Below, piece after piece: positions 17,528 through 49,020 of a DNA stretch of 64,000 nucleotides. The stretch lies in contig JAWBQJ010000005.1 in assembly GCA_038845865.1 (NCBI GenBank), positions 1-64,000 of the forward strand, in the 5' to 3' direction. Positions within the stretch are counted from its first letter, which is position 1; each line of letters begins with the position of its first letter. The notes under the pieces were generated by a model that made no database searches, was not told where the DNA came from, and worked only from the letters and a program-made list of their open reading frames with translations. The DNA comes from Desulfurococcaceae archaeon. GTDB lineage: Archaea > Thermoproteota > Thermoprotei_A > Sulfolobales > Desulfurococcaceae. The translations under genes were made by a program, and so were the position numbers.

Positions 17528-18433
17528 TTGAAAAGCGACTATTTGTCTCAGGTAACGGTCGTTATACCCGTGCTCAATGAGCGTGAAGCATTAGAGAAGG
17601 TCCTGAACGAGCTCTTCGAGGTTCCCATACCGCGTGAAAGGATCATTATCGTAGATGGGCATAGTACTGACGGCACCGATAAGATTGCCAGGAAACTCGG
17701 TGTTAAAGTTGTGTACCAGAACGGGAAGGGTAAGGCAGACGCGGTGAAGGAGGGACTGAGCCTCGTAGAAACAAAGTACGCGGTAATAATGGACGGTGAC
17801 TACACGTATCCTGCTAGGTATATTCCAAGACTACTCGAAGAGGCCGTGGTAAGACGGTGTGGCGAGGTCATCGGTGCCAGGATCCATGGACGGGAAAACA
17901 TACCGCTACTAAACCGCCTTGGCAACAGGATCATAACACTATTCTTTAACGTACTATACGGCACGAGGTTAAGAGATGTCTTGTCGGGAATGTACCTTGT
18001 CGACATGGAGCACTTAAGAGATGCAACTTACGAGATGAAGGGTTTCAGTATAGAGGTGGAAATAGCTTCCCACATGGCGGGCAGTATCTTAGATATCTGC
18101 GAAGTGCCTATAGAATACCGGGAGAGGCTTGGCGAGAAGAAACTGAAAGCCGTGCACGGCCTTAAGATCGCGATCGACCTCTTAAGGCTTGTTTGGAGGT
18201 ATAATCCAGTCCTATTCATATTCATGGTCGCCAGCTTACTGGTAATACCGGGGCTGGCGCTGGGGGCTTACGTAGCGTACTACTACTTCTTCGAGGGTGT
18301 GAGATACCACGTTAAAGGAATAATAGCGATAGTCCTGACCGCATCGGGGTTCAACGCGCTCCTTCTAGGAGTACTCTCGCTGTATTTGAAGAGAATGGAG
18401 TTAAGATTACGCAAACTAGTAACTCGCAAGTGA
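17528..18433 (+). CDS. GT2 glycosyltransferase with two C-terminal membrane helices (polyprenyl-phosphate sugar synthase-like)
   Basis: 301 residues. The GT-A fold signatures are TVVIPVLNEREALEKVL, IIIVDGHSTDGT (D43) and IMDGDYTYPARYI with the metal-binding DGD at 89-91. The conserved RLGNRIITLFFNVLYG and DVLSGMYLVD follow. Two hydrophobic helices (about 228-255 and 264-290) anchor it. This architecture is that of dolichol-phosphate mannose/glucose synthases: sugar transfer from a nucleotide sugar to a lipid phosphate on the inner face of the membrane. Start TTG 17528. It is the first gene of the operon and overlaps the archaeosortase gene by four bases, which suggests that its lipid-linked product is used by the downstream proteins. 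Confidence 0.88.
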   Translation: MKSDYLSQVTVVIPVLNEREALEKVLNELFEVPIPRERIIIVDGHSTDGTDKIARKLGVKVVYQNGKGKADAVKEGLSLVETKYAVIMDGDYTYPARYIPRLLEEAVVRRCGEVIGARIHGRENIPLLNRLGNRIITLFFNVLYGTRLRDVLSGMYLVDMEHLRDATYEMKGFSIEVEIASHMAGSILDICEVPIEYRERLGEKKLKAVHGLKIAIDLLRLVWRYNPVLFIFMVASLLVIPGLALGAYVAYYYFFEGVRYHVKGIIAIVLTASGFNALLLGVLSLYLKRMELRLRKLVTRK

Positions 18434-20133
18434 ACGGGCAGCTGGTGATACCCTCATTGACTAGTACACTACAGGAGTATCGTGCCAAGTTGGTGATGGG
18501 CTACTTAGTAGTAATGTCGCTTATAGCTCTCCTAATCCAAGGCATGTACCGGGATTACTTCGAAACGGTTGTGAAGCTCGTATTTACCGAGGATTACAGT
18601 TACCTGCTAGTGGCCTTCTCCACGGTAGCGGTAAGCCTCTATCTCTCGTACCGGTACATGGGCCTTTCCTACGAGATCCAGCTCAGTAGAGTACTCTCCA
18701 ACTCGCTTCTATTCATAATTGCGGTGATGCTTTACCATGCTTCAAAACTAAGCCTGGATTACTCAGTTCAGCTTATGGGTTTAAGCTTTGCCGTGATGCT
18801 CATTGCGACTATAATGTTCGTCTTTAAACCCTTATCGCCGGGTGACACGATACCCCTTATAACCCCGCTACTCACAGTACCCATTCCAGCGAGCGTACTA
18901 GATCGTGTAACAACTTCACTCTCACGCGTTATCGGTAAAGTTGCGGCACTACTAACCGGGACAAAACTCGTGGAGGCGCAGGCATTTACCATGATCGAGG
19001 TCGTTACCGCTAACGATGGGGTCCGCGCGCTCAGCATCGAGGCCGTCTGTAGTGGGATTGCGATGCTGAGCGCGGCGATCGTGATCTTTCCTCTTCTAGC
19101 GTATTATATTACCGCGAGCCGTGAAAAGGCCTTAAGGAAGGCGGTAGTATCCGCAATTGCGTTCGCTACGGGGCTCTTAATAGGCTTCGTAGGGAACACG
19201 TTGAGAGTTATTTCAATAGTACTGGTCGCTAAGTACTACGGCGTTGAAGCGGCTACAAGCATTTTCCATTACTCGCCATCCGCTATCTACGCATTACTTT
19301 CAGTGATTACAGCGTATGCGCTGATCTCCAAGCTGGCGCGCATAGCTTACGCCGTGCCAAGGCCCCTGGAGGCCGATACCAACCTCTCGGGGTTAAGGTG
19401 GGAGTATGTCGCCGGCACGTTGATATTGTTATTGTTCATGGTCTCGGCGGTACAGGTATCGACTGTACTGTCTGAGAATGCGCTCGCCGGAGAAGCCGGC
19501 ACCGTGGCCATCAAGGTTGATAGCGTGGGGGACTTCATCGAAAACCCCGTCAAGTACCTGGTTCGCAGCGATATGGTTTCCAGTTACGTGTACGATGCTT
19601 TTCTAACTAGGGTTACTGGCTCGTTAGCGATGTACAGAATTAGCGTTGTTACGGGTAACGACACGTATCCAGGGCTCCTCGAACTGGTAGATACCACGGG
19701 GAGATTGCACACTCTACAGCTTTGCTTCAGCGTGCAGGGTTACAGGGTACTAAATGCCTGGAACGAGCAACGCGGGTCTCTCATGGTGGGTTACATCATG
19801 TCGGAGAAGGATGGCGTGCTCTATCTACTAACGTACATGCTTACGCCTGTTACCGTTAAGTCCACCAGTGGAGATTACGCCTTCTACGCGAGGGTATCAC
19901 TGGTAAAGCCGTACACCGGCGCGGGAGACCTTGAGACGGCTGCTAACACCCTGCTCAGATCCCTAAGTGTAAGCCCGGTTCCCGTATTGCGAGAGAGCGC
20001 TGTACCTGGGCTTGCAGTCGCGTGTAGCACGAGTGTTGCAGTTCTAGTTATATATGCCTTTGTAACGTATTTATACAACCTGGTCTTGAAGAGGAGGCGC
20101 GGCGTTGTCCCAATTAACAAAACTGAGCTTTGA
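18430..20133 (+). CDS. archaeosortase/exosortase fused to an EpsI-like domain
   Basis: 567 residues. Eight or so membrane helices (about 20-310) carry the exosortase/archaeosortase catalytic set: Cys207 in IEAVCSGIAML, Arg259 in VGNTLRVISI and His280 in IFHYSPSA. A membrane helix at about 325-343 leads into an exterior domain (about 345-525) with TLQLCFSVQGYRV around Cys432, reminiscent of the EpsI/DUF3485 domain fused to some bacterial exosortases, and a final helix (527-552). Family knowledge: these enzymes cleave C-terminal sorting signals of surface proteins and probably join them to a lipid. The start GTG overlaps the GT2 gene and the 3' end overlaps moxR by 29 bases. The substrate proteins are not identified here. 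Confidence 0.88.
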   Translation: MNGQLVIPSLTSTLQEYRAKLVMGYLVVMSLIALLIQGMYRDYFETVVKLVFTEDYSYLLVAFSTVAVSLYLSYRYMGLSYEIQLSRVLSNSLLFIIAVMLYHASKLSLDYSVQLMGLSFAVMLIATIMFVFKPLSPGDTIPLITPLLTVPIPASVLDRVTTSLSRVIGKVAALLTGTKLVEAQAFTMIEVVTANDGVRALSIEAVCSGIAMLSAAIVIFPLLAYYITASREKALRKAVVSAIAFATGLLIGFVGNTLRVISIVLVAKYYGVEAATSIFHYSPSAIYALLSVITAYALISKLARIAYAVPRPLEADTNLSGLRWEYVAGTLILLLFMVSAVQVSTVLSENALAGEAGTVAIKVDSVGDFIENPVKYLVRSDMVSSYVYDAFLTRVTGSLAMYRISVVTGNDTYPGLLELVDTTGRLHTLQLCFSVQGYRVLNAWNEQRGSLMVGYIMSEKDGVLYLLTYMLTPVTVKSTSGDYAFYARVSLVKPYTGAGDLETAANTLLRSLSVSPVPVLRESAVPGLAVACSTSVAVLVIYAFVTYLYNLVLKRRRGVVPINKTEL

Positions 20134-21064
20134 TAAGGCTAACGAGCTCGTCAAGGAGGTTATGATTACCATCTCTAAGGTATATGTAGGTAAGCAAGAT
20201 ATAGTTAAACTAGCCGTAGTAACGCTCTTTAGCGGGGGCCACCTGCTAATTGAAGGTTATCCGGGCACGGGTAAGACCCTCCTAGCCAAGGCACTTGCAA
20301 AGGCTATTAGCGGCGAGTACAGGAGAATACAGGGACACCCCGACGTGCTTCCGAGCGACATCATAGGTTTTCACATGTACAGGGTTAGCGGTGAGAGAGT
20401 TTTCATTAAGGGACCCGTGTTCGCGAACGTCGTGCTATTTGATGAGCTTAACAGAACGCCGACGAGGTCCCAGAGCGCCTTGTTAGAGGCCATGCAAGAA
20501 TACCAGGTGACAGTAGACGGCACCACCTATCCTCTTCCAAGACCATTTATGGTTATAGCCACGCAGGTCCCCGAGAGGTACGCTGTAGGCACGTACAGGA
20601 TCATGGAGACGCTTGCTGATAGGTTTAGTACCTCGATACTGAGCTACTACAACCCGCCGGAAGAGGAGCTTGAAATAGTTACCAGGGCCGACTTTATCAT
20701 TACAATGCCGGTGGAGCAGGTAGCTACTCTGAGTGAAGTGAACAATGTCATAGAGTCTATGCCGGGCCTAGTCGAGGTGAGCGAGTACGTGGCCGACTAC
20801 ATGGTCAGGCTAGTAAACTACGTTAGAACCCACTCCGCCGTGGCTTACGGGCCTTCACACAGAGTAACGGTGGATCTAATGAAGCTCAGCAGAGTACTGG
20901 CACTACTCGAGGGTAGAGAGTACGTCATACCCGATGATGTCAAGTCAATATTCGTCAACGTCGTATCACATAGAGTTAAGTTGAAGGAGGAGTACGAGCT
21001 TGAAGGATTAACAGCAGACTCGATTGCCACTGAGGCCCTGAAAAATGTCCCTGTACCCCGATGA
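20105..21064 (+). CDS. MoxR-family AAA+ ATPase
   Basis: 319 residues. Walker A GYPGTGKT (51-58), the MoxR-typical RIQGHPDVLPSDIIGF, Walker B VLFDELNRTP (about 110-119), then SALLEAMQEYQVTVDG and the sensor region FMVIATQVPERYAVGTYRIMETLADRFS. MoxR ATPases act as chaperone-like motors with DUF58/VWA partners during maturation of secreted or membrane complexes. A DUF58 gene lies 4 kb downstream in the same operon, fitting that pairing. Start TTG 20105, inside the 3' end of the archaeosortase gene. Confidence 0.95.
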   Translation: MSQLTKLSFDKANELVKEVMITISKVYVGKQDIVKLAVVTLFSGGHLLIEGYPGTGKTLLAKALAKAISGEYRRIQGHPDVLPSDIIGFHMYRVSGERVFIKGPVFANVVLFDELNRTPTRSQSALLEAMQEYQVTVDGTTYPLPRPFMVIATQVPERYAVGTYRIMETLADRFSTSILSYYNPPEEELEIVTRADFIITMPVEQVATLSEVNNVIESMPGLVEVSEYVADYMVRLVNYVRTHSAVAYGPSHRVTVDLMKLSRVLALLEGREYVIPDDVKSIFVNVVSHRVKLKEEYELEGLTADSIATEALKNVPVPR

Positions 21065-22703: not shown

Positions 22704-24478
22704 AACGCAACAGTAGACTGTTTTTACCCCTGCTTTTCTCGGTGCTGGTAATAATAGCGAACACTACTACAGGCTCCACGAGTACTAAGGACAGAGTCGA
22801 CTGCCTCTACCTTCTAGTACTACTAGACAAGGTGCTGGATTACGCAGTTAGAGGAGACCCTGTAGGCGAGCTGATGAGCAAGTATATAGTGAATGCGGGG
22901 GTGTTCGGCGACCTTCACGATCTTCACGTGTCTGCGTATACCGCTATTTTAGACTATTACAGGGTTCTTCACGTTACTAGTGAGACCCCCTTTAACTTGA
23001 CTAGCGGAGCGTATAGGATCCTGGAGGGCTTAAACGACATCGGAGGTTACGCGAGTAGGCTGAGCGCGTGCTCTCACGACGCCGAGGCCGCTAAGGCGTT
23101 GAGCGTCTCCGTAAACGCGAAACTACGTGGCCTGAGGGATCTCGTCTACGCGTTGATTAAAGTATCATATCGAGCCCGATTCACTGATGCTTACCAAGTA
23201 CGTCCTCTCAAAGACACGTACTTACCTGGAGAAGTGGTGGAGATCGCTATCCCTCGAGAAATACGTGTTGAAACCATGGAGGCGTATGCCTGGCCCAGCT
23301 TTCTCAGGATCCGGGACTCTCTTCCGCGTGAGTGTAATGAGGTATACTGCGCATACGAGCTATCAATGCCCACGGCAATGGAGTTAGAGCATCTAGGGCT
23401 AAGAAGGTACTTGATTGAACAGGTTCTCACGGTGGGTATCTTTGCCAAGCTGTTAAACGGCTCGTACCTAGGAGTTTACCTGGTGACTGTGAAGTATGAC
23501 CTGCCGAGGGTGCAGGTTGACATGCCGAGCACGGTTAAGCGTGGTGATATACTGGAAGTCAAGGTGCTCTCCGAGGACTTTTACAACGCTAGTTTGCGTT
23601 TAAACGGCTTTGAAGCTCTGAATATAACGTTTAAACCCGGCACCACTGTTCTCACGCTGGATCCCGTTCATTACAACTACACACTAGGACTCAACACGCT
23701 TGAAATCTGCGTAAATGCTTCAATAAGAACGCTTTCACATTGTTATAGCAGGGTATTCACCGTTGAGCCGGTACATCCACGGGTAGGCATAAGCCTAGGT
23801 GACTTCGCTCTTACGTGGTCCGGCTTCTTGACACTAACAATAAGCAATATGGACGTGGTTGACGTGCACGCAGTAGTGGATACGGGTGTGTTTAAGCAGA
23901 CTATCACGGTGCCGGGTGGTTGCATCGGGCAGGTAAACATTTTTACCGGGATTTTACCCGTTCAGGGCTTGAACGTAAACATCGGTATCACCGCCACCCG
24001 AGGTCCTTACGACGAGCTTAAAGTTAGTAGGAGCATATATGTAGTAAACGTGGCAGCTACCATAATTTTAACCCTGGTATCGGTGCTACTGTCGTCTTTT
24101 ATGAGTAGTCGTGAGAAGAGCTTTATTGTGGCTTTAATCACTGCGTGGAAGAGGTACATGCCCGTATCGGTGAGACACGCGGAATTAGAGGTTAGTAGGC
24201 TCTTGAAGCCGTATAAGCTTGGACTGGGCTCGCACGTGGCACTACTGTACTACGAGCTAGTGCGCAGGCTGGGGATCAGGATGCCCCAGGTACATGAAAC
24301 CCTAAGAGAGCACTTCATGGAGATTTCAAGGTCGCCCTCGCTTACCTTAACACTCAAGAAGCTGATGTGGAAAATGCTACTAATCGCCGAGAGGGATCTC
24401 TATTACAGTAAAAGGCCTCCACTAGAGGAGGCTAGAAGGCTCTACGAGGATGTTTTAAATGCTGCTCGCAAAGAGTAG
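22700..24478 (+). CDS. exported multi-domain membrane protein with cytoplasmic DUF4129-like tail
   Basis: 592 residues. Signal peptide or anchor at 5-25, a helical exterior domain (about 30-160), then beta-sandwich segments with many N-x-S/T sequons (for example VKRGDILEVKVLSEDFYNAS), a membrane helix at about 450-470, and a cytoplasmic C-terminus whose HVALLYYELVRRLGIRMP and QVHETLREHFMEIS resemble the DUF4129 motif found beside transglutaminase and MoxR/DUF58 proteins. No transglutaminase Cys-His-Asp triad is visible. It overlaps the next gene by 20 bases. Likely a structural or sensing subunit of the surface-assembly machine. Confidence 0.75.
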   Translation: MKRNSRLFLPLLFSVLVIIANTTTGSTSTKDRVDCLYLLVLLDKVLDYAVRGDPVGELMSKYIVNAGVFGDLHDLHVSAYTAILDYYRVLHVTSETPFNLTSGAYRILEGLNDIGGYASRLSACSHDAEAAKALSVSVNAKLRGLRDLVYALIKVSYRARFTDAYQVRPLKDTYLPGEVVEIAIPREIRVETMEAYAWPSFLRIRDSLPRECNEVYCAYELSMPTAMELEHLGLRRYLIEQVLTVGIFAKLLNGSYLGVYLVTVKYDLPRVQVDMPSTVKRGDILEVKVLSEDFYNASLRLNGFEALNITFKPGTTVLTLDPVHYNYTLGLNTLEICVNASIRTLSHCYSRVFTVEPVHPRVGISLGDFALTWSGFLTLTISNMDVVDVHAVVDTGVFKQTITVPGGCIGQVNIFTGILPVQGLNVNIGITATRGPYDELKVSRSIYVVNVAATIILTLVSVLLSSFMSSREKSFIVALITAWKRYMPVSVRHAELEVSRLLKPYKLGLGSHVALLYYELVRRLGIRMPQVHETLREHFMEISRSPSLTLTLKKLMWKMLLIAERDLYYSKRPPLEEARRLYEDVLNAARKE

Positions 24479-25295
24479 AGTTATACCTCTATCTACGCTG
24501 ATAGCAGTCATAGCGGGGTTACTGGTAATTACGTCGCTTCCTTCAGACTTACCTTACAGTGCTGCAAATAGTGGCGCAGGTGGACTACACCGACTGTATG
24601 AAGAACTGGGTGCGCGTGTATTGTATTCCTTGAAGGATTTAAGTGGATACGACGCAGCAGGCTATGCCTTGATCGTAGCTCGTAGAGGCGGGCTCGAAAA
24701 CATGGTGGGGTTGAAGAGCTTCGTTGAACGGGGAGGCCTAGTAATAGCTTACGGTTCGCCGGATTACATTGTTGGCCTGCTAAGGGGGCTGGGCGTTAAC
24801 GCCACCTTTAAAGGATACGTCCGCGACGTGATGTTTGGCGTCGACAATCAGGGATACATCGTGGTGAACACCACGTCGCGTTGTGGTAACATAGTACTTG
24901 GAAATCCATACACGCTTGAACTTGAGGGCGCATTAGAGAACTCGTTCGCTCATAGTAGTATGTTTTCGTACGTTGACCTAAACGGCAATGGGTTCTACGA
25001 CCTTGAAGAGCCTTTAGGGCAGTTCCCACTAGGCGTTAGCATCACTAGCGGAAACGGGCACGTAATCATAGTATTCGCTAAAAACTTCCTCGATAACAGC
25101 GTCCTGGATCCCAACAAGCAGTTTTTAAAATGTACTGTGGAGGGTAGACCGGTATTGATCGATCAATCTGAGGTTGCCGGAAACCCCTTCGAGCTACTAC
25201 GACTAGTACTATATAAGCAGGACGGGCATGCCTACATCACGTTGATGCTCGCATTTATACTGGCACTGGTGGCTTATTTTGCAAGCTGGAAGTAA
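24459..25295 (+). CDS. DUF4350-like membrane-anchored protein
   Basis: 278 residues with a hydrophobic N-terminal helix (8-28) and a C-terminal one (258-275). Between them is a GATase-like alpha/beta domain: SAANSGAGGLHRLYEELGARV, then YALIVARRGG and FVERGGLVIAYGSPDYI, as in DUF4350 proteins. These normally lie in MoxR-DUF58-DUF4129 operons and have no known activity. Start ATG 24459 within the upstream 3' end; its own 3' end overlaps DUF58 by 17 bases. Confidence 0.78.
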   Translation: MLLAKSRVIPLSTLIAVIAGLLVITSLPSDLPYSAANSGAGGLHRLYEELGARVLYSLKDLSGYDAAGYALIVARRGGLENMVGLKSFVERGGLVIAYGSPDYIVGLLRGLGVNATFKGYVRDVMFGVDNQGYIVVNTTSRCGNIVLGNPYTLELEGALENSFAHSSMFSYVDLNGNGFYDLEEPLGQFPLGVSITSGNGHVIIVFAKNFLDNSVLDPNKQFLKCTVEGRPVLIDQSEVAGNPFELLRLVLYKQDGHAYITLMLAFILALVAYFASWK

Positions 25296-27003
25296 AGATG
25301 CCCTGTACGCGCTACTGGTACTGCTTGAATCGGCCTGCTTCGCCATGTTATTTGCTACCTACGGCTATCCAGGCTTGGCATTACTACTAGCTGTAGTCCC
25401 CCTAGCACTGAGGAAACATCGAGTACTTTACATTTCAGTCCTTACTTCAGGTTTCGTGCTTATCGCCCTGGTAAACAACGTTTACGCCTACATAGTGTCA
25501 ATCTTAATGGCCCTAGTCGGCTCTTCCTACTATATATTAAACTGCCGCGAAGGGAGTGAAGTTAAAACAATTCACGCAGTATTGCTGATATACACGCCAC
25601 TATATGTTATTTCGCCTAGGACGGCTGTCCCGGCAATGGCCTCGTCGCTAGTTTACCTAATCCACCTGCTCCGCGAGTACCTTAGGTTAGGCAAGTCACA
25701 CGTATACTTGTTCGCGCTAAATCCCGCAGTACACTTGAACGAAAACGCTGACATCGCACTAGAGGTAAAATGTCCAGGACGCTTCAAGTACATGGTTCAA
25801 GTAGACGATAGCGCATACCCAGTTAAGGAAGGCACTGATGGTGTCTTCGATGTGATCAGAGTAAGGGCTACCCGCCTAGGCGTGGTAAGACACGTTGTTA
25901 AAGTAATCTTACTTGATTTCCGCGGGCTGGCCAAGGTAGTTCACGGTCCCTATATACTGGAGTACGCAGTCATGCCAAAGTTCCCCGAGCTTGTGAGGCA
26001 GGTAGAAAGGATTCTACGCCGTTATGCCGAGTACGTGACAGTGCCACTAATATCGATAATAACGCTACAACCGGGGCTCGACAAGGAGGCAGGAGGAGTT
26101 GGTGGGATGGGGCAGGCTATGGGCGTTGAAGGAGCTACTCATGCTGTATCCGATACGACTACGAAAAGTAAGGAATACCCCGCCAAGGCAACGGGGGGTA
26201 TTGAGGCTCCTGGGAAGGTAGCTGTAGGGCATTACGCGGAGACCGCCTCCACGCAACCTAGAGCAACGCAGGGTGCTCAGAAACACTTCGAGGTTAAAGT
26301 TGCTTGGAGGGCTCCGAGAAAAATACTTGAGAGAACGATCCAGGTAGTAAAAGCCTACGTAGGCGAGTACATTGGCGTCAGAAATTACCAACCCGGAGAT
26401 AGCGTGAGATTGATTCACTGGAAGAAGAGCTTCCGCAAAGAGGATGTACTAGACCTCGCTGTCAAGGTTTACAGTAGTGGTGAAATGGAAAAGCGATCTA
26501 CCGGGGGGAGGCTCATCGTGCTAGCTGACTTAACCGCTACGAGCCCCGAAGAGCTGGATCTACTGCTACAAACGCTCTATAGCCAGCTTCTTTCAGTTAT
26601 TAGGGACTCTGGCAGGGCTCTCAGCGAGCTATACTTATACCTGGTCACGCCCAGGAATGAGACGTACTTCTTGAAGGGTAAAGTAGTTGATATACTATCA
26701 GCGCTCAACGCACTTATATTGGAGGAAAGGTACACGTCTCTATATAACTACAGTAGCTGGCCTAGGATAAACCCACCGGTGAAGGGTAAGGCAACCGGCC
26801 TCCTTGAGCAGCTCGTCGAATACTACAGGTCTTACGGACACGCACTAGTAAGGGACTTGAACTCATGGGGTCTCGAGAAGGGAAGTATAATCCTTATACA
26901 TTCTAAAGCCCTTGGCTTCAAGTACTATGTAATCGCAGCAGTCTTAAAGGAGCACGGATTCGCAGCAATCACCCCGGGAACACGCGCTATTGAAGGCTTG
27001 TAA
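25279..27003 (+). CDS. DUF58 protein, MoxR partner
   Basis: 574 residues. Several N-terminal membrane helices (about 6-130), a beta domain (150-235), a Gly/Ala/Thr-rich linker of about 55 residues (275-330), then the DUF58 signature RNYQPGDSVRLIHWKKS (368-384) followed by a VWA-like domain starting GRLIVLADLTATSPEELD. DUF58 proteins work with MoxR ATPases. The length and linker exceed the usual 300-450 residues. Start TTG 25279, overlapping the DUF4350 gene. Confidence 0.92.
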   Translation: MQAGSKDALYALLVLLESACFAMLFATYGYPGLALLLAVVPLALRKHRVLYISVLTSGFVLIALVNNVYAYIVSILMALVGSSYYILNCREGSEVKTIHAVLLIYTPLYVISPRTAVPAMASSLVYLIHLLREYLRLGKSHVYLFALNPAVHLNENADIALEVKCPGRFKYMVQVDDSAYPVKEGTDGVFDVIRVRATRLGVVRHVVKVILLDFRGLAKVVHGPYILEYAVMPKFPELVRQVERILRRYAEYVTVPLISIITLQPGLDKEAGGVGGMGQAMGVEGATHAVSDTTTKSKEYPAKATGGIEAPGKVAVGHYAETASTQPRATQGAQKHFEVKVAWRAPRKILERTIQVVKAYVGEYIGVRNYQPGDSVRLIHWKKSFRKEDVLDLAVKVYSSGEMEKRSTGGRLIVLADLTATSPEELDLLLQTLYSQLLSVIRDSGRALSELYLYLVTPRNETYFLKGKVVDILSALNALILEERYTSLYNYSSWPRINPPVKGKATGLLEQLVEYYRSYGHALVRDLNSWGLEKGSIILIHSKALGFKYYVIAAVLKEHGFAAITPGTRAIEGL

Positions 27004-27045: not shown

Positions 27046-27474
27046 GTGGTGACGCTGGTGTACAAGTACTGCTTGCTTGCAATGCTACTATTAACCTTTT
27101 TGTTGCTCGTGACACCCGTATCTCGTGCTCAGGAGGGGTTCCCAGATGAGATCGCCTCCGTAATGAGGGACCTTGAGTACCTGCATAGCAGGGGGCTAGA
27201 CCTGGAACCTGTTATCGAGGCGTTGAATAAGGCCATAGAAGCATACTACAAGAACGACGTAGCTGAAGCTCGCGAGTACTTGGAAAGGGCTAAACACCTC
27301 GTGGAGGAATTAAAGCCAGTTGCCGAAACCGTTCACCTAGTTAACTTACTGACTAAAATATGCACGGTGATCGCGCTAGCATCCATTCCACTAGTGGTCT
27401 ACTTCGCCTTGCCGAGGCTGTACTTGTACTTGTGGTTTACATCTCGTAAAAAGTGGATTGTGATAAGGCGGTAA
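27046..27474 (+). CDS. small exported helical protein with C-terminal membrane helix
   Basis: 142 residues. A signal peptide or N-terminal helix (8-27), an exterior helical hairpin (about 32-95: ALNKAIEAYYKNDVAEAREY, a pattern typical of TPR-like or SlpA-like helices) and a membrane helix (102-122) ending in basic residues (RKKWIVIRR). The family is not recognised. It overlaps the following DUF1616 fragment gene by 22 bases. Start GTG 27046 or 27049. Confidence 0.65.
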   Translation: MVTLVYKYCLLAMLLLTFLLLVTPVSRAQEGFPDEIASVMRDLEYLHSRGLDLEPVIEALNKAIEAYYKNDVAEAREYLERAKHLVEELKPVAETVHLVNLLTKICTVIALASIPLVVYFALPRLYLYLWFTSRKKWIVIRR

Positions 27475-27983
27475 AATTGATCTTGGATGACGAAGTGTTC
27501 GCTGTAATACTCGCAGTGACCATCGTGTCATCCGTAGTAGGAATAGCAATGGTGCTTCGGCAGGAGGCCGAGCAGTGGACAGCGCTGGGTTTACTCGGAG
27601 AATGCAAAATAGGCAAATACCCTAAAACAGCGGTAAACGGCTCTTTACAGGATTTATGCATCTACGTGGCTAACTACATGGGTAAGCCAGTGTACTACAA
27701 GGTAATATACAGAGTAGGTGATCAGGAAGCATTGCCCACAAATACCACCCCTTCGCCAAGCGAACCCCTCGCCTTCTGGATAGGAGTACTGGGCAATAAG
27801 GACAACGCCACGGTACCCGTCAAGGTGCCAATTACTGTTCGAGGACCCCTACCCCGGAAAGTCGCGCTGATCTTCGAGCTCTGGTTGTACGATACCGGCA
27901 CACATGAATGGATATACTCAGGTAGGTGGGTTCATGTTTATGTTAACGTTACGTTAATACCGATAGAGGGTACAACACAGTGA
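27453..27983 (+). CDS. DUF1616 C-terminal (exterior) domain as a separate protein
   Basis: 176 residues. One membrane helix (about 14-34) followed by an exterior beta domain beginning with WTALGLLGECKIGKYP and containing LCIYVANYMGKPVYYKVIYR, which matches in order what I know of the C-terminal half of DUF1616 (a T-E-L-Y-L-L-like start, yP, then a V-x-N-x-E-like strand). In usual DUF1616 proteins this half follows four membrane helices in one chain; here those helices are encoded by the next gene. The stop overlaps the next start by four bases (GTGA). Exosortase/archaeosortase-associated in other genomes. Confidence 0.72.
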   Translation: MDCDKAVKLILDDEVFAVILAVTIVSSVVGIAMVLRQEAEQWTALGLLGECKIGKYPKTAVNGSLQDLCIYVANYMGKPVYYKVIYRVGDQEALPTNTTPSPSEPLAFWIGVLGNKDNATVPVKVPITVRGPLPRKVALIFELWLYDTGTHEWIYSGRWVHVYVNVTLIPIEGTTQ

Positions 27984-28567
27984 AACACGGCGAAGTTGTA
28001 CTCGAAGAGTACATCAAGAATCTGGCTCAGAGTAGAGGAATGTATAGCGTTCTCCGCGAAACGTGGACAAGTGTACGAGAAGGGCGTATTAAGCTAATAG
28101 ACCCCGACCCCCCCGTAACGTTCGCGGCTTACTCTTTCAGGCTATGTTACTCGCTGTGGTTCTGGGCATCCCTAGCCTTCATTTTACTAACATGCGTGCT
28201 CGTGTATACTACTGACTTCGTGCCCCTATTACTCCCCGCCAGATACGTGTTTGCAACGTTGTATGTCCTCTTTCTCCCCGGCTACTCCTTGGTGGAAGCG
28301 CTGTACCCTGGTGAGGGTGACCTTTCACCACTAGAAAGGGTGGCCCTTTCAATAGGCTTGTCGCTAGCAGTAGTGCCGTTAATAGGCTTAGTACTCAACT
28401 ACACGCAGTGGGGCATTAGGTTAACGCCGGTGGTCGCATCAACCGCTATCTTTACCACCACAATGCTGATTATCGCCCTCTACCGGAAGTACTCTATCTA
28501 TAAGCTCTCAATAACGCCCACGAGGCGAAAATCGTGGTCTTCAGGGCGGGGAAGAGTATCAGGATAG
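27980..28567 (+). CDS. DUF1616 N-terminal (membrane) domain as a separate protein
   Basis: 195 residues. A charged N-terminal helical part (1-45) is followed by four membrane helices. The DUF1616 signature is clear: ATLYVLFLPGYSLVEALYP, then GDLSPLERVALSIGLSLAVV and GLVLNYTQWGIRLTP. It ends with a basic, Ser-rich tail. Together with the preceding gene it makes up one complete DUF1616 protein, but with the two halves in reversed gene order. It overlaps the first FtsX-like gene by 34 bases. Confidence 0.8.
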   Translation: MKHGEVVLEEYIKNLAQSRGMYSVLRETWTSVREGRIKLIDPDPPVTFAAYSFRLCYSLWFWASLAFILLTCVLVYTTDFVPLLLPARYVFATLYVLFLPGYSLVEALYPGEGDLSPLERVALSIGLSLAVVPLIGLVLNYTQWGIRLTPVVASTAIFTTTMLIIALYRKYSIYKLSITPTRRKSWSSGRGRVSG

Positions 28568-29511
28568 TGACTTTACTTGTAAAATCTATTTTAAGGCGCA
28601 ACGCTCATCTGATCCTACTGGTATCTCTCAGCGCGCCACTTGTCCTCACTGTCATACTTTACTCCCTACCGAGTCCAGTACTGTTTCTAGAAGAATACTT
28701 TAGTAGCGCGTTCAGAGACGTGAACGTGGTTATAACTTCTCGGAACAGCATTATTGGGAAGTGCATTAAAGCCGGCTTAGTGGAAGGGGAATTAGCTGGT
28801 TATGGGCCCGTAACGCTAGTATACCCCAAAGTAATCACGAAGGAGTTCTTAGAGGCTCTTAAGCTCAACGAGACAGGATGCATGTGTAGCGGTTTAACCA
28901 TCTCTCTTCCCCGAGACATATATGTCTATTTAAATTATACCTGTAACGTCGGATTAAGAACTCTCGGTGCATATGGAAGTTACTGTACCGGGTATACTCA
29001 CAAGTCGCTAGAAGCCGTAATAGTGCTAGTTAATGGAACGGAGAGCTTTCAGAGAGATAACCTGTATCTTTGCTTTACTTCAAAGCTCGAAATTGCACGT
29101 AATACCCTAGTGGAACTGGAAAGCAGTATTTTGAGTACAGTAGACGCGTGGCTGTTTTTGCTGTTAATTGCTTCTTTACCGGGTGTCTATGTTGCCTCTA
29201 TTAGAGTTCTCTTAAGCATTAAAAGCGAGTTAAGGGTGTTGTTGAACGTGGGACTCAGCGAAGCCGCCGTAACCCTCTACTGTACATTCGCTCTCTGGAT
29301 TCTTGAGGTGCTTTCGGGCCTCTTCCTCCTATCGCTATCTACCACGATAGTGTACTCCGCATCTACGGCCCTCAGCACCTTAGTCCCAGCCTTAGTACCT
29401 ACTTTCAGGCTGGGGCAAATACTCCGTCACACTTTACTGATTTTCGCCTTCACTTACTTAGTCTCCTCAATAGCTTCGCGGAGGTTTGCCAGGAATGAGG
29501 AGTTACTTTAA
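28534..29511 (+). CDS. FtsX/MacB-type ABC permease-like protein, first copy
   Basis: 325 residues. One membrane helix near the N-terminus (about 27-47), an exterior domain of about 150 residues with five or more cysteines (CMCSG, NYTCNVG, YGSYCTG), then three C-terminal helices (about 205-310). This 1+3 topology with a large exterior loop is that of FtsX-like permeases (LolC/MacB). With the second permease and the LolD-like ATPase it would form a heterodimeric exporter or extractor. Start GTG 28534. Confidence 0.7.
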   Translation: MVFRAGKSIRIVTLLVKSILRRNAHLILLVSLSAPLVLTVILYSLPSPVLFLEEYFSSAFRDVNVVITSRNSIIGKCIKAGLVEGELAGYGPVTLVYPKVITKEFLEALKLNETGCMCSGLTISLPRDIYVYLNYTCNVGLRTLGAYGSYCTGYTHKSLEAVIVLVNGTESFQRDNLYLCFTSKLEIARNTLVELESSILSTVDAWLFLLLIASLPGVYVASIRVLLSIKSELRVLLNVGLSEAAVTLYCTFALWILEVLSGLFLLSLSTTIVYSASTALSTLVPALVPTFRLGQILRHTLLIFAFTYLVSSIASRRFARNEELL

Positions 29512-30571
29512 AGTTTACATACTCATGGTGCGGAAAAGGTGTGCCTTAATAGTGTTTCCAGCTGTAGTGCTCTTGGTTCTAAGCGTGCTTTCAGCGTACG
29601 CTCTAAGCTCCATACGGACACTGTACTACGCGGACAAAACACTGCTAGGATTAGGTGACAGCGTAGTCGTATCCGGCGCTGCCATTTCACCATTCACGTC
29701 GCTTGTAAACTCCGAGGAGCTGAGCAGGCTTCTAGCCGGTGTCAAAGGCGTTGAAGTAGAGTACCTCTTCCTGACCTTAGCATATCTATACGATAAACCG
29801 GTCGTAATTCACGGAGTGGAAGAAGGGGTTAAAACAGGCTGCGCCCACGTAGGTGTAGACCTGGTTAAGTCGCTTCACATAAATGTGGGAGAAGCGATCC
29901 CAGTTCACTCTCCTTTCAGTGATAGCACCTACTTCTTTGAAGTCTGCGGACTCGTTGAAGGGCCTGCCCTTCTACTGAACTACGAAGATGCCATAAAAAT
30001 TCGCGGGGTAAAGCCCGGCTACTACACGCTAGCAGTCATTAGGGCCGAGAACCGAGAAGTTCTCGAGGAGGTCTACAAAGCCCTGGGTTTGGAACCAGCT
30101 AAGCAGAAGATACTTTCTAGGGCACTATTAGTGCTAGTGCGCAAAGGCGAGAAAATCAGTGTGGAGGCCTACGAGAACATAATCGAAGGCTATCTCTACA
30201 GGCTCGGTATATACCGTGATTTCGTATTCTACTTCGCGTACGCCATGGTAATTATCTCGGCCCTCAGCACACCGATAATCGGTGTAGGGCTGGTGGTGCT
30301 GCTTCGTAGAGAAGTTTACGTGCTAAGGCTTTTAGGCCTATCTTGTAGAGGGGTATTCCTAGTGCTCCTGACTACTGTAGTGGTCGCGACGCTGTTTTCA
30401 TACGCGCTTGCCCAAGTAATTGCTATTTCAGGGCTTCTCCCGGGTACGCGCGTACTAGGCTACTATATAAGCCCCTCGATGAGCGTGGAAGATCTCATTT
30501 GCGTACACTTCGTGCACTTAGTGATGTGCATCACGGGAGCATATATTGGGTTAACACGCCATGCCAAGTAA
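29495..30571 (+). CDS. FtsX/MacB-type ABC permease-like protein, second copy
   Basis: 358 residues from the ATG at 29495, placed about 10 bp after GGAGGT; a TTG at 29486 is less likely. A membrane helix (about 17-37), an exterior alpha/beta domain (about 40-220) including GVDLVKSLHINVGEAIPVHS, a phrase typical of MacB-like periplasmic domains (v-G-x-x-i), then three helices with the FtsX-like VYVLRLLGLSCRGVFLVL. Overlaps both neighbours. Partner of the preceding permease. Confidence 0.78.
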   Translation: MRSYFKVYILMVRKRCALIVFPAVVLLVLSVLSAYALSSIRTLYYADKTLLGLGDSVVVSGAAISPFTSLVNSEELSRLLAGVKGVEVEYLFLTLAYLYDKPVVIHGVEEGVKTGCAHVGVDLVKSLHINVGEAIPVHSPFSDSTYFFEVCGLVEGPALLLNYEDAIKIRGVKPGYYTLAVIRAENREVLEEVYKALGLEPAKQKILSRALLVLVRKGEKISVEAYENIIEGYLYRLGIYRDFVFYFAYAMVIISALSTPIIGVGLVVLLRREVYVLRLLGLSCRGVFLVLLTTVVVATLFSYALAQVIAISGLLPGTRVLGYYISPSMSVEDLICVHFVHLVMCITGAYIGLTRHAK

Positions 30572-32081
30572 ACGCGCATATATGGCGCTACTCATCATAC
30601 TGCACGCTGCAATTGTAAGACTCATCCCTGTACTTGTCACGGGTATGCCCTTCTCCAACGATGTATGGCCGCTAATCAGGATCGCACAGGCGCTCAACAA
30701 TGGTACGAGCATAGGCGCGCTTTATGGAGACCCGGTTTACGGGCATCACGCTCAGTGGCCTTTCTCAGTGCTCATGGCAATGCTATACTCCAACGTAGCA
30801 GGTATAAGTCCACTATTTTACTACCAGTATGTTGGAACATGTCTTGTAGGTTTAGTGCTGGCGTTGCTAGCATACGTACTTGGTAACCGCTTATTCGGCG
30901 AGCACGCCGAACCGGCCCTATTCGCTCTAGCTCTATCAGCGTACCCGTCTTTTGTACTGTACACTTCCGCGTTTTTGAAGGAGGTATACGCCCACCTAAT
31001 AGCGCTGGCTTTCCTTATTTGGGTGCTTACTTCCAGTAGATGGGGTGCTTACTTCCTAGCACCAGTATTCACGGTATCACTCGTACTTGGACACCCACTT
31101 CCTTCCATTATCCTTGCTCTCGTGCTTGCGCTACATTACGTTGATGAAAGGGTCCAGGCATTTAGGGGCCGTAAAGCACCTGAACGGGTTTCGTGGAGGT
31201 TGGCGGCATTGGCCCTGGTTTTACTGGTGGCAACGATAGCATATAATGCGGTGGTCGTGAAGGAATGGCCGATCCTACTTAATTCCGTAGACGCCATGCT
31301 ACTAATTACATACGCTGTAACGGTGTACGCCGCTTACGTACTACTTGGTGATGGAGGGTCGAGCTGCCTGTTTGGAGCACTTGCAACAGCGGCAATCGTG
31401 ATTACCGTGAGGGCCATTACCAGCCCCCTATCGTATAGCTTATTGCTGTACGTGGCACCACCTCTAACAGTATTCCTTGCGAGCACCATTAAGAGCGTGC
31501 GGAGATCTGGAGACAGTAGCCTACGTGCAGTAACCGCTACACCGCTTCTCCTAATTATCTCTACCGGGTTTTTGTACATTACAACGTACTTCACTCAGGT
31601 ACTAGGACTTCTACATAGGCTACTAAATTACCTTGTTTACGTGACTGCAGTATTGATGGCTGGCATGGCACGTAGAAGTATTGGTAAGACCGCCGCCATC
31701 GCGTGCGCGTGTGTAGCTATTACACTGGCATCCGTGTGCACCGCTTCCACGGGGTTAGATCCCCTTCTATTCTACTGGAAGTACAGTAAAGTGGATGGCG
31801 AGCTTGAAGTTTATATAGCGAGGTTCCTGGCTGGAGCCGGCATACACGGCGACCCGAAGTACTCCTACTTCATGGCGGGGCTGGTTAATCACATACCACT
31901 AAACGCGCTGGTGGACACTTGCAGGTGGCTAGGCCGTTCCCAAGACCTACTATTGCTTTCTTCTAGCGACTTAAAGTACGGTATACCGGTCTCGCCAGTA
32001 GATTTTGTTAAAATTGGGGAAAACGTATTTACATGTGGTGATCTCGTGTTCAATGCCGGTGATATATGGCTCTTCGGGTAG
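30561..32081 (+). CDS. GT-C-fold-like multi-pass membrane protein (possible glycosyltransferase)
   Basis: 506 residues with about 12 membrane helices. The first exterior loop carries PFSNDVWPLIRIAQALNNGT, with an acidic D-x-W before a helix, as in GT-C glycosyltransferases (PMT, oligosaccharyltransferase-like), whose catalytic acid sits in the first loop. YTSAFLKEVYAHLIALAF is consistent with that. If so it would use a lipid-phosphate sugar such as the product of the GT2 enzyme at the operon start. A plain structural membrane protein is not excluded. It overlaps the upstream permease gene and the start region of the ATPase gene. Confidence 0.6.
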   Translation: MPSKRAYMALLIILHAAIVRLIPVLVTGMPFSNDVWPLIRIAQALNNGTSIGALYGDPVYGHHAQWPFSVLMAMLYSNVAGISPLFYYQYVGTCLVGLVLALLAYVLGNRLFGEHAEPALFALALSAYPSFVLYTSAFLKEVYAHLIALAFLIWVLTSSRWGAYFLAPVFTVSLVLGHPLPSIILALVLALHYVDERVQAFRGRKAPERVSWRLAALALVLLVATIAYNAVVVKEWPILLNSVDAMLLITYAVTVYAAYVLLGDGGSSCLFGALATAAIVITVRAITSPLSYSLLLYVAPPLTVFLASTIKSVRRSGDSSLRAVTATPLLLIISTGFLYITTYFTQVLGLLHRLLNYLVYVTAVLMAGMARRSIGKTAAIACACVAITLASVCTASTGLDPLLFYWKYSKVDGELEVYIARFLAGAGIHGDPKYSYFMAGLVNHIPLNALVDTCRWLGRSQDLLLLSSSDLKYGIPVSPVDFVKIGENVFTCGDLVFNAGDIWLFG

Positions 32082-32086
32082 TAGCG

Positions 32087-32767
32087 ATGTACTTGCTTAA
32101 GCTAGTGGGAGTTTCGAAGGTTGTTGGAGGAGAACTAATACTCAGAGACCTAGACCTCGAAATACCGGGATCTGCCACGGTACTAGTCCGTGGTAGAAGC
32201 GGTGTTGGCAAGTCTACGTTAGCGAGAATAGCAGCGCTCTTGTGGAAACCAGACAGTGGTACAGTCCTCTTTAACGGTGTAGATACGTGTACTCTCAGTG
32301 AAGCGGAGAGGTCCAAGGTGAGGTTAAGGCACATTGGGTACGTCGACCAGGAGTACGTGTTAATGCCCGAGCTCACGGTGTTGGAGAACGTTGAACTACC
32401 CCTTCTATTACTGGGCGTTGAAAAGAAAAAGCGCCGAGAGTTGGCGAAGGATGCGCTTGAGGCCTTAGGGTTAAAAGGCCTTGAACACAGGTACCCTGAC
32501 GAGCTTAGTGGCGGTCAGAAACAACGTGTCGTGATAGCGAGAGCACTGGTTAAGGGACCAAGGCTACTCGTAGCGGACGAACCGTTCTCGAACCTAGACA
32601 ATGAAGCGGCTAGAAACGTTTTAGACTACATAAGAAGGCTCTCCAGGTCTATTGGTTTGTCAGCATTGATGACCACCGTGGACCTTTACGGAGATTACCA
32701 GGTTGACTACGAGTACGTTCTTGAAAACGGGAGACTGACTGCCGTCAAACGGCTGGAACCACGTTAG
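32087..32767 (+). CDS. LolD/MacB-type ABC ATPase
   Basis: 226 residues from the ATG at 32087, where the family fold begins (LLKLVGVSKVVGG); the in-frame ATG at 32066, with GGTGAT just before it, is the alternative. Walker A GRSGVGKST (36-44), Q-loop YVDQEYVLMPELTVLENVELP, signature DELSGGQKQRVVIARAL, Walker B RLLVADEPFSNLD. The LTVLENVxLPLLL pattern is that of LolD/MacB ATPases, which pair with FtsX-type permeases. The usual H-loop His is replaced (LMTTVDLYGDY), so ATP hydrolysis may be altered. Last gene of the operon. Confidence 0.92.
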   Translation: MYLLKLVGVSKVVGGELILRDLDLEIPGSATVLVRGRSGVGKSTLARIAALLWKPDSGTVLFNGVDTCTLSEAERSKVRLRHIGYVDQEYVLMPELTVLENVELPLLLLGVEKKKRRELAKDALEALGLKGLEHRYPDELSGGQKQRVVIARALVKGPRLLVADEPFSNLDNEAARNVLDYIRRLSRSIGLSALMTTVDLYGDYQVDYEYVLENGRLTAVKRLEPR

Positions 32768-41457: not shown

Positions 41458-42585
41458 TCAGGCTGTTTCTTTGAGAACCTTGACATTGAACTCTACTCCT
41501 AGGCTTTCTCCTTCTTCCCTTATCTCTTTCAAGATGCCTCTATGCACTGGTATTCCGATCCTCATCCTCGTTTCCATGGTTAACCAGGCTTTTTCCCCGG
41601 GTAGCCAGATCTCAGCGCTTTCGGAGATCTTCTTGAGGCTTTTAATGTACTTCCTGTACTCTTCGATCCTATCCAAGAAGAGGTCTAGTGAGGAGATAGC
41701 ATCTATGTTGACCACGATCATGAAGTGGCCGACGTTCGCGGGCTCTTTACCCGTTGTATGTTTAACATACATGCCGTAGCTGGCACCTGTCAGAACTCCA
41801 CAAAGAACGTCTACGACTAGAGCTAGCCCAGAGCCCTTATGTCCACCGAGTTCCTCGCCGAGCCCTCCTAATGGGAGTAGCGAGCCCTTCCTAGCCATGA
41901 CTTCTTTCGGGTCATCTGTAAGCCTGCCTTCAGGTGTCAATGCCCAGCCTAGTGGTATCTTCTTATCCTGCTTGGCATAGAGCTCTATTTTGCCAATCGG
42001 AGCTATGCTGGTAGCGGCATCAAACAATATTGGCGGAGGGGTCTTCGTAGGAAATCCCACCGCTATGGGGTTCGTACCCATATTCCTGCCCACGGTGTGC
42101 GTATAAGATACCACAGCTTCGGAGTTGGTCATCACGACTCCAACCATGTTCTCCCTGACTGCCTGCAGGGCGTAATAGCCCGCTATACCAAAGTGATGGC
42201 TATTTCTAACACCGACTACGGATACTCCTGCACTCCTAGCCTTTTCAATGGCTATCTTCATTGCATTGTACGCGACAACTTGCCCCAAACTGGCACCACC
42301 GTCAATCAGTGCGGTTGAGGGGGTCTCCTTTACGGTCATGATCTCGGCTCTGGGCTTAACGGAGCCGTTCTTGATGCCGGTCGTGTACCTCTTGAGTCTC
42401 TGAACCCCGTGGCTCTCAATACCCATCAAATCGGCGGTGACAAGGACGTCAGCGACGATCTCGGCGTGCTCACGCGGTACACCTAGGGCACAAAATACCT
42501 CCTTAACATACTCTTTTAAAGAGGTCCACTCAACCCGAACGAACTCCTCTGGAGGTATGGGAGGGCTTTTCTCGTAGAGCCTCAT
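41458..42585 (-). CDS. LDH2/malate-dehydrogenase-family NAD(P)-dependent oxidoreductase
   Basis: 375 residues from the ATG at 42585 (GGGGTG upstream; ATG 42618 is an alternative without such a site). Family motifs: GIESHGVQRLKRYT with the catalytic His, SHHFGIAGYYAL, GTNPIAVGFPT, GGHKGSGLALVVDVLCG. This family includes malate, L-lactate, sulfolactate and ureidoglycolate dehydrogenases and also the delta1-pyrroline-2-/piperideine-2-carboxylate reductase DpkA. It is the third gene of the glycyl radical block. Because that enzyme is HypD-like, a cyclic imino acid reductase role is attractive but is inference; a 2-hydroxyacid dehydrogenase role is equally allowed by the sequence. Confidence 0.88.
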   Translation of the reverse strand: MRLYEKSPPIPPEEFVRVEWTSLKEYVKEVFCALGVPREHAEIVADVLVTADLMGIESHGVQRLKRYTTGIKNGSVKPRAEIMTVKETPSTALIDGGASLGQVVAYNAMKIAIEKARSAGVSVVGVRNSHHFGIAGYYALQAVRENMVGVVMTNSEAVVSYTHTVGRNMGTNPIAVGFPTKTPPPILFDAATSIAPIGKIELYAKQDKKIPLGWALTPEGRLTDDPKEVMARKGSLLPLGGLGEELGGHKGSGLALVVDVLCGVLTGASYGMYVKHTTGKEPANVGHFMIVVNIDAISSLDLFLDRIEEYRKYIKSLKKISESAEIWLPGEKAWLTMETRMRIGIPVHRGILKEIREEGESLGVEFNVKVLKETA

Positions 42586-42649
42586 GCCGCTACACCCCGA
42601 TTTCATCTTCCTAGACATCGTTAATTTAACCTTTAATGCCGTGGAGAGG

Positions 42650-43579
42650 CTAGCCGTATCCTCCTACAGTGACCTTTAAGCCTGTTTTCTCTATTTCCTC
42701 CTTGATGAGGTTAAGCCTATCAGTTGATGCTTTTAGTCCCGGTGGCATTTTGTATTCGAGGTCTAGGCGCTCATACTTTTCCCTCACATCGTGGTATGGA
42801 AGTAGGTCTACCCTTAAGATAGTCTTCAAGTTTAAAGATGAGAGCAGATCGATCACGCTTTTTAGGTTCTCATCGGTATCCGTTATGGTGGGTATTACTG
42901 GTATTCTTATAATGATCGGCTTGCCCGTGGCGTTCGCGTAGAGCAGGTTTGCGAGTATCGGTTTATTGGATACCCCAGTATACTTTACGTGAGCAGCGTC
43001 ATCTACTAGCTTTATATCGTAGAGTAGTAAGTCAACCAGCTCTAGGACTTCTCTAAAAACGCCTGATGGCGCGTAGCCAGAAGTCTCAATTGCGGTGTGT
43101 ATCCTCCTAGCTCTGCATGCTTTGAGTAGTTCGGTGAGAAACCCCGCCTGTACTAGTGGTTCCCCACCACTAAAGGTGACACCCCCTCCACTAGCATCAT
43201 AGAATGGTATATCTTTTTCGATTTCAGCCATTACCTCCTCCACGGTCATTTCCTTCCCTATAAACCTGAGGGCGGTTGTGGGGCAGTTCTCCGTACACGT
43301 TCCGCAGAGATTACAGCGGCTTCTATCTATCTTGACCACGTTCCTTTCCTCGTCGTATAGTAGGGCCCTCTGAGGGCAGATCCCTATGCAGGTTTTACAC
43401 CTAATGCACTTGTAACTTATGTAAATTAAGGAGGGCTCTATCGTTAGGCCCTCGGGGTTCTGGCACCACCAGCATCTAAGAGGACAACCTTTTAGAAAAA
43501 CAAGCGTTCTTATTCCAGGCCCATCGTAGATCGCGAATCTCTGTATATCAAACACGATTCCCTTAACCGGTTTCACCAC
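42650..43579 (-). CDS. glycyl radical enzyme activating enzyme (radical SAM)
   Basis: 309 residues. The radical SAM motif CPLRCWWC lies at 32-39, then the ferredoxin-like insert typical of non-PFL activases with two Cys sets (C58, C61, C64, C68 and C89, C92, C95, C99) for two further 4Fe-4S clusters. GGGVTFSGGEPLVQ is the SAM-binding GGEP. DGPGIRTLVFLKGCP is characteristic. It abstracts hydrogen from the glycine of the partner enzyme encoded 15 bp upstream, generating the glycyl radical. Start GTG 43579 or 43576. Confidence 0.95.
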   Translation of the reverse strand: MVKPVKGIVFDIQRFAIYDGPGIRTLVFLKGCPLRCWWCQNPEGLTIEPSLIYISYKCIRCKTCIGICPQRALLYDEERNVVKIDRSRCNLCGTCTENCPTTALRFIGKEMTVEEVMAEIEKDIPFYDASGGGVTFSGGEPLVQAGFLTELLKACRARRIHTAIETSGYAPSGVFREVLELVDLLLYDIKLVDDAAHVKYTGVSNKPILANLLYANATGKPIIIRIPVIPTITDTDENLKSVIDLLSSLNLKTILRVDLLPYHDVREKYERLDLEYKMPPGLKASTDRLNLIKEEIEKTGLKVTVGGYG

Positions 43580-46167: not shown

Positions 46168-46365
46168 TTGCCACGTCGTGAAGGGGCTCGGGAAGGCCGT
46201 AGGATCCTTCAGCACTTGAAGGGGCTTTTGAATAGATACTTGCCGGCTAGGTTGCTTAAATGTATTGAAACCGCTGAAAAGTGGTGGGGGAAAGAACTCT
46301 TGGTGAGGATGCTATTATACGGGTATACGTATGGTGGGGAATGCTACGTGAGGGGTGATTTCACC
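46168..46365 (+). other. plus-strand coding-like remnant between hypD and a racemase gene
   Basis: An open frame reading LLNRYLPARLLKCIETAEKW then WGKELLVRMLLYGYTYGGEC looks like protein but has no ribosome binding site and runs on into the racemase gene in the opposite direction. Probably the leftover of a gene truncated when the cluster was assembled. The 46084-46343 gap contains otherwise only the hypD promoter. Confidence 0.3.
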
Positions 46366-47036
46366 TTACGGTGCTTTAGTTTCAGCTTTATAATAGCTTC
46401 CGCTATTTTTAGCGTTGTAATTGTTGGATCTATTACTGGTATGCCCGTGGTCTCGCTTAGTTCATCTGCTAGTCCTATGAGCCCTCCGCAACCTAGTACT
46501 GCGACGTCTGCACCGTAATCTCTTATAGCCTTCTTGATTTCCCCTACTAGTAGGGCTTTCACTCTTTCAATTTCCTTTCTCAGGTCCAGTATCGGAACGT
46601 CTATTCCTGAGATGTAGACTATGCGTCTCTCAACGCCTAGTTGGGAGGCTCTGCGCCTGTATATAGTAGACCATTCTCTCCCCGTCGAGATCACCGCTAT
46701 GTTGTAGCCTAAGAGCATGGCTGTCATTAACGATGTCTCTCCTATGCCGAGAACCGGTATGCTGGAAACCTCTCGCGAAGCCTCTAGTCCAGGGTCGTCA
46801 AAGCAGTTTATGACAACTCCCTTAAAGCCCTCCTCACTCGCTTTTAGTACTTCCCTAACGACAAGTGGTGCGGCTAGCTCTTTTTCGTACTCAGTCTCTA
46901 TGAATGGTGGTGCGCTGGGTATGTGCCTTACAGCGACTTCAACATCTGAAGAGAGAACGGTCTTCGCGTACTTTAAAACGAGGTCGTCCCACACATCCAC
47001 ACTAACGGGGTTTATGACGAGCAGCTTCAAAGACAT
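46344..47036 (-). CDS. Asp/Glu/hydantoin racemase family protein, first copy
   Basis: 230 residues. N-terminal LKLLVINPVSVDVWDDLV, then the two catalytic cysteines in VVINCFDDPGLEA and VAVLGCGGLIGLADEL, placed as in cofactor-independent hydantoin/aspartate racemases. VLGIGETSLMTAMLLGYNIAV is family-typical. It should interconvert enantiomers of an amino acid derivative or hydantoin. It sits between the peptide importer and hypD. A second, clearly different copy lies at 52744. Start ATG 47036 with a TATA box (GGTATTTAAC, about 47072-47081) and three palindromes upstream. Confidence 0.85.
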   Translation of the reverse strand: MSLKLLVINPVSVDVWDDLVLKYAKTVLSSDVEVAVRHIPSAPPFIETEYEKELAAPLVVREVLKASEEGFKGVVINCFDDPGLEASREVSSIPVLGIGETSLMTAMLLGYNIAVISTGREWSTIYRRRASQLGVERRIVYISGIDVPILDLRKEIERVKALLVGEIKKAIRDYGADVAVLGCGGLIGLADELSETTGIPVIDPTITTLKIAEAIIKLKLKHRKVKSPLT

Positions 47037-49018: not shown

Positions 49019-49020
49019 AG

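Follow-up and report, generated by a model that had tools for sequence, protein, structure and literature searches.

How does a membrane protein come to be coded by two genes whose order is the reverse of the order of its domains? This question is raised by a 64,000-nucleotide stretch of DNA from a Desulfurococcaceae archaeon (hereafter the window), in which two overlapping reading frames, genes B and C, resemble the two halves of a DUF1616 protein. The canonical member of this family (PF07760, COG4743), e.g. Methanohalobium evestigatum WP_013195696 or Haloferax volcanii HVO_2173, is a single chain with the helices first, as alignment and the full-length Pfam match upheld.

The two halves of DUF1616

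An original prediction, made without database searches, had read the two frames as the exterior and the helical half of DUF1616. Both frames were found at the coordinates of Table 1, and profile searches of each half agreed with this reading. Gene C matched PF07760 of Pfam at positions 4-120 (E 1.4e-31) and gene B at positions 151-236 (E 1.3e-7), the latter with 31.6 bits, which is exactly the curated cut-off. Profile-profile comparison with canonical DUF1616 chains gave E 6e-33 for C and E 1e-17 over 153 columns for B. Regarding the hallmarks of the family, the four-helix N-terminal part with the motifs PGY...LFP, LER.ALS.GLS and LNYTPWGIRL is present in gene C, and the fifth helix followed by the exterior beta domain with its YP motif in gene B. 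Each half is homologous along its entire length to the canonical chain, and five membrane helices plus a single exterior beta domain are common to both. Instead of one chain with the helices leading, the window has two genes with the exterior half first and a 4-base overlap, precisely as had been described. Because this order recurs in many other genomes, chance can be excluded as its source. An intact DUF1616 gene elsewhere, which would have spoken for two unrelated genes here, was not found, as the full genome sequence (1.45 Mb, 99% complete) contains no DUF1616 match beyond B and C.

Table 1. Coordinates of the trio, its parts and its neighbours in the window
Feature	Position	Strand	Description or evidence
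GT2 glycosyltransferase, AglJ-like	17528..18433	+	PF00535 E 1.9e-22; TIGR04182 E 2.7e-61, below cut-off
Exosortase/archaeosortase family protein	18430..20133	+	PF09721 E 2.6e-12; TIGR04178 above cut-off
MoxR-type AAA+ ATPase	20105..21064	+	PF07726 E 1.8e-45; conserved neighbour
DUF4350 protein	24459..25295	+	Pfam E 5.5e-5, below cut-off
DUF58 protein	25279..27003	+	Pfam E 0.0011, weak and below cut-off; neighbour kept in several loci
Gene A, 142 aa	27046..27474	+	Signal peptide followed by an exterior helical domain, a membrane helix and a cytoplasmic tail
Conserved juxtamembrane tail of A (YFALPRLYLYLWFTSRKKWIVIRR)	27400..27471	+	Alignment of 23 sequences
Gene B	27453..27983	+	DUF1616 exterior half: membrane helix 5 and beta sandwich
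Membrane helix of B	27501..27557	+	Homologue of canonical DUF1616 helix 5
Exterior beta sandwich of B, Ig/CARDB-like	27570..27956	+	Fold of the homologous L102 domain
GTGA shared by the stop of B and the start of C	27980..27983	+	4 bases
Gene C, 195 aa	27980..28567	+	Cytoplasmic N-terminal domain and four-helix half of DUF1616
Cytoplasmic N-terminal region of C (REGRIKLIDPDPP)	28001..28141	+	Probable reduced winged helix
Four membrane helices of C (motifs VLFLPGY..EALYP, LERVALSIGLSLA, LNYT.WGIRL)	28142..28513	+	Model and invariant columns
Downstream run: two permease-like proteins, a large membrane protein and an ABC ATPase	28534..32767	+	

Two details of gene B differ from first appearances. 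Since the alignment of its relatives begins at M(I/L)LDEEVFAV, its true start is probably the TTG at 27477, two bases past the stop of gene A, rather than the GTG at 27453. The second concerns the membrane helix, which had been taken for a new one that keeps the exterior half at the membrane. Columns 7-163 of B pair with canonical columns 185-341 (E 1e-17), and because this alignment continues ungapped from the helix to the beta domain, the helix is instead the ancestral fifth helix of DUF1616. The chain break lies in the cytoplasmic linker that joins helices 4 and 5.

Insight on the fold was obtained from an AlphaFold2 model of L102, a relative in which B, A and C form one chain in this order (46 aligned sequences, mean pLDDT 93.3, pTM 0.80). 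The B part consists of a helix (7-29) and a beta sandwich (38-161), the A part of exterior helices (176-214) and a single 62-residue helix (218-279), and the C part of a winged-helix-like cytoplasmic domain (about 297-346) and four helices (361-485). In the case of gene C of the window, the model likewise showed four membrane helices (pLDDT 93.1). A fold search matched the L102 beta sandwich to the CARDB domain of PF1109 with Z 10.2, and matches reached Z about 10 over 102-103 residues. The CARDB and Ig-like domains PF1109, 3idu and 2kl6 share a fold with the exterior half of DUF1616. This fold is widespread, and the likeness extends neither to a match of sequence families nor to a demonstrated common function with B. 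The winged-helix-like region of L102, whose elements are visible in the model, weakly matched the Z-alpha winged helix 1sfu in a profile comparison (E 0.009). These two observations, together with the model of gene C of the window, point to a probable reduced winged helix at the N-terminus of C. In the case of the four-helix part, comparison with solved folds yielded nothing convincing (best Z 4.8, no Foldseek match under E 1), families outside those collections being possible. A kinship of C to GT-C-like membrane proteins (DUF6541) was dropped, as it rested on E 0.01 in one of 16 sequences.

N-glycosylation sequons fit the exterior location of the beta domain of B: 53 B proteins contain 262 of them, compared with 61 expected from shuffling, and the enrichment is stronger than in the other parts of the trio. 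The sequons of C are probably for the most part its invariant NYT, which was dismissed as a glycosylation site since a proline usually comes next. For H. volcanii, a glycoproteomics survey reports that HVO_2173 is N-glycosylated in its exterior part (PMC8241124).

Some variation within C was also observed. The stand-alone C genes of L036, L038 and L039 have a longer and clearer winged-helix-like N-terminal domain. The C part of L039 runs on into an extra membrane segment ending in WIGWTMATTPPPKP, a motif which is found in L022 and L025 as a separate small gene directly after C.

Gene A as a third part

Directly upstream of B lies gene A, which had been overlooked and is a member of the same unit. 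It matches no Pfam or NCBIfam family at or over its cut-off; matches to FliS, PhoU and others fell below the cut-off and were taken as chance. Gene A is poorly conserved, its relatives sharing 13-37% identity with the window copy. Its cytoplasmic tail carries the conserved residues PR-Y-W-RR-W: among 23 sequences Y119 and W130 never vary, and P123, R124 and W137 hardly do.

When 23 stand-alone copies of gene A are combined into a profile, it matches the middle of the B-A-C fusions (E 9e-17), so that the extra middle segment of these chains is gene A. The fused copies have no signal peptide, and need none because they are already outside. The same profile has no match in canonical DUF1616 chains; those examined contain neither the A part nor the winged-helix-like domain.

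The linkage of A to the pair is close. Among the loci with at least 2.5 kb of sequence upstream of C, 51 of 55 have A within 2.5 kb of C. In a sample of 299 genomes of the phylum Thermoproteota, of which 109 are DUF1616-positive, 65 of the 71 genomes with a strong A match belong to these positives (Fisher p 5e-29). Both this figure and the count of linked loci are uncorrected for kinship. A clear A (E <= 1e-6) was not detected in 44 of the 109 positive genomes, where it may be either dispensable or missed by the search. One match, in L090 at 5615-5902, was rejected as a coiled-coil surface protein.

These observations bear on the suggestion that the pair might function as a two-subunit protein. 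Separate B and C chains very probably do cooperate, but the number of subunits falls short, as A is constantly linked to them and in relatives fused with them. We consider it likely that A, B and C are one three-part membrane complex that is coded in several gene arrangements. The two DUF1616 halves are made as separate chains, and A would be their partner in this complex. Gene C would supply four membrane helices and the cytoplasmic winged-helix-like domain, B the fifth helix and the exterior Ig-like domain, and A a long membrane-crossing helix that carries a helical hairpin on the exterior. In relatives the same complex would be coded as A>B>C, as an AB fusion followed by C, as AB divergent from C or as a single B-A-C chain; in Euryarchaeota it would be a C-B chain with A absent. 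From the homology, the order, the fusions and the constant linkage we infer physical assembly, which the fusions support well.

Could B simply be an Ig-like surface protein and C a membrane protein of an independent family, the two having profile segments in common merely through later roles of their own and not assembling at all? In some genomes (e.g. G206 and G121) B and C are indeed kilobases apart or far away from each other, and in G313 and G115 A-B pairs occur with C elsewhere. However, single chains unite B and C in two different orders (CB and BAC), AB fusions probably originated more than once, and the adjacency of B and C is kept over great distances. Independence of the two is therefore highly improbable.

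Arrangements across archaea and their history

In most DUF1616-positive genomes of the sample for which both halves were listed, B precedes C, and a full-length canonical chain was found in only three genomes, all Bathyarchaeia-like. A second scan comprised 80 named loci from Desulfurococcales, Thermofilum, Ignisphaera, Bathyarchaeota, Nitrososphaeria, Methanomethylicia and Methanodesulfokora as well as the Asgard groups Odinarchaeota and Baldrarchaeota, classified with the A, B and C profiles. The most prominent arrangement was A>B>C (48 loci, including L081 and L113, in which A lies away from the B/C pair), followed by a single B-A-C chain (11) and an A-B fusion divergent from C (9). Four loci have B>C with A missing or the locus truncated at a contig end, and eight have C alone, several of the latter at contig ends. 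A-B fusions oriented towards C occur in L011, L012, L049 and L050, which brings AB fusions to 13 loci. Single B-A-C chains of about 450-520 residues are present e.g. in L037, L041, L042, L044, L046 and L053; six B-A-C loci came from the genome sample, whose organisms may partly coincide with those of the 11 named loci. The swapped order is thus the usual state in Thermoproteota and is found in Asgard loci too. To call it an informative marker for one operon type, as had been proposed, is too narrow, as the split or permuted form prevails throughout the phylum.

The canonical helices-first form was confirmed in Methanohalobium and haloarchaea, and 80 of 93 plasmid records match at least 80% of the canonical query in one place. 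No canonical relatives were confirmed among viral contigs.

In a tree of the C part, three forms are each confined to one side of a branch, namely the B-A-C chains (support 100/97), the divergent A-B fusions (97/89) and the canonical CB chains (100/99); all remaining positions belong to separate genes. Once the co-oriented fusions are added, the A-B fusion requires three changes on this tree and therefore probably has more than one origin. With a root on the canonical branch, the three-gene state would be the background for Thermoproteota and Asgard, and the BAC and AB fusions would be derived from it.

The locus had been explained by fission with rearrangement. If this were recent, a canonical C-B gene would have been split within the present lineage and its two halves exchanged. 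Canonical single chains, the required starting point, are known in Euryarchaeota and in the three Bathyarchaeia-like genomes. On the tree, however, they are confined to one branch, and the three chains of Thermoproteota group with the euryarchaeal ones, which suggests that they came by transfer. Separate genes are widespread in the loci of Thermoproteota and Asgard and surround the fused forms as a background. A recent event of this kind is accordingly unlikely, whereas a single fission, or a fusion in Euryarchaeota, may have taken place in ancient times; the direction between CB and split forms hinges on the root.

The topology predicted from the models is identical in all arrangements: the N-terminal end of helix 5, the tail of A and the winged-helix-like domain would be inside, and the beta domain and the hairpin of A outside. 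Overall, it is reasonably probable that we are dealing with one polytopic membrane machine, retained across a large part of the archaea in at least five arrangements (A>B>C, AB>C, AB divergent, B-A-C and C-B), a natural permutation among them, with unchanged topology and an undescribed subunit A in Thermoproteota and Asgard. The family also shows how widely the gene order and chain breaks of a membrane protein can shift while its predicted topology stays fixed, and the fused and permuted relatives provide a natural test of which pieces go together. In practical terms, two DUF fragments and a 142-residue gene without a name become one defined three-part complex for expression, co-purification and folding. 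Annotation pipelines that look for DUF1616 as one chain will overlook or mislabel its parts throughout Thermoproteota.

Gene neighbourhood and other loci of the window

Close relatives share the run of genes in which the trio is embedded (Table 1), and in distant relatives MoxR and DUF4350 are again found near the trio. In 38 of the 41 sampled genomes with DUF4350 and C on one contig, the two are at most 10 kb apart, typically about 3.5 kb. Further membrane proteins precede the trio, between MoxR and DUF4350 in the listed run. Downstream, the ABC ATPase (32066-32767) matches PF00005 with E 1.4e-31, the other genes of that run have no family, and the order of the whole run is repeated in L060 and L105. 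The two adjacent permease-like proteins (28534-30571, + strand), without a Pfam match and with the ABC ATPase beyond them, are probably a divergent FtsX/MacB-like transporter tied to the same run. Exosortase genes co-occur with DUF1616 in the genome sample (51/77). The exosortase/archaeosortase-family protein of the window bears a C-terminal extension, and several Bathyarchaeia-like genomes have exosortases of about 700 aa located 4-7 kb from the DUF1616 four-helix gene.

Similar neighbours have been described before. In the available sections of Makarova, Galperin and Koonin (2015), DUF4350 (arCOG01314), MoxR and vWA genes form a predicted system for secretion or membrane remodelling, and pfam07760 proteins with "2 or 4 TMs" belong to several arCOGs of that system (PMC5898192). 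The window shares with it the DUF4350 protein, found below the Pfam cut-off, the MoxR-type ATPase and the pfam07760 proteins. No vWA model matched a neighbour of the trio; the DUF58 protein, itself a weak match, may fill the vWA part. Gene A may be one of the arCOGs listed in those sections as "membrane protein with 2-3 TMs". Thus, both the DUF1616 family and the predicted arCOG01314 system are already known, and the swapped split, the permuted fusions and A as a constant partner are not described in the available sections of PMC5898192 and PMC8241124.

Judging from its gene neighbours, the trio could, tentatively, be the membrane scaffold of the predicted DUF4350/MoxR/DUF58 surface system. 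Such a scaffold would hold or guide exported (glyco)proteins, to which B and A would offer an exterior surface. The long helix and conserved tail of A would connect to the cytoplasm, from where the MoxR ATPase with DUF58 would drive an energy-dependent step. The handling of surface glycans or lipid-linked sugars, in place of protein export or anchoring, appears more doubtful. It would agree with the GT2, flippase-like and large membrane proteins near the trio in many loci and with the haloarchaeal DUF1616 genes lying among polysaccharide genes; however, DUF4350, MoxR and DUF58 accompany the trio more constantly, and neither a catalytic nor a sugar-binding motif was found. The trio sits in a predicted archaeal surface system of no known biochemistry.

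Other loci of the window deserve a brief description. A glycyl radical enzyme (43594-46083), its activase (42650-43579) and an Ldh_2-type dehydrogenase (41458-42618), all on the - strand, adjoin a peptide-type ABC transporter, an unusual set for a hyperthermophilic-type archaeon. The best family of the enzyme is trans-4-hydroxy-L-proline dehydratase, with 1070.5 bits, just below the cut-off of 1100. The region 46344-54533 (- strand) contains a solute-binding protein 5 type transporter, an Asp/Glu/hydantoin racemase-like gene and an S-Me-THD gene, the last thiohydantoin desulfurase-like and far below its cut-off; it is perhaps a locus for the degradation of hydantoin or amino-acid derivatives. 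Finally, 3326-6694 (- strand) codes for a large secreted peptidase of family C25 (the gingipain family) that carries a coiled coil and a membrane helix at its C-terminus and is possibly a client of the surface system.
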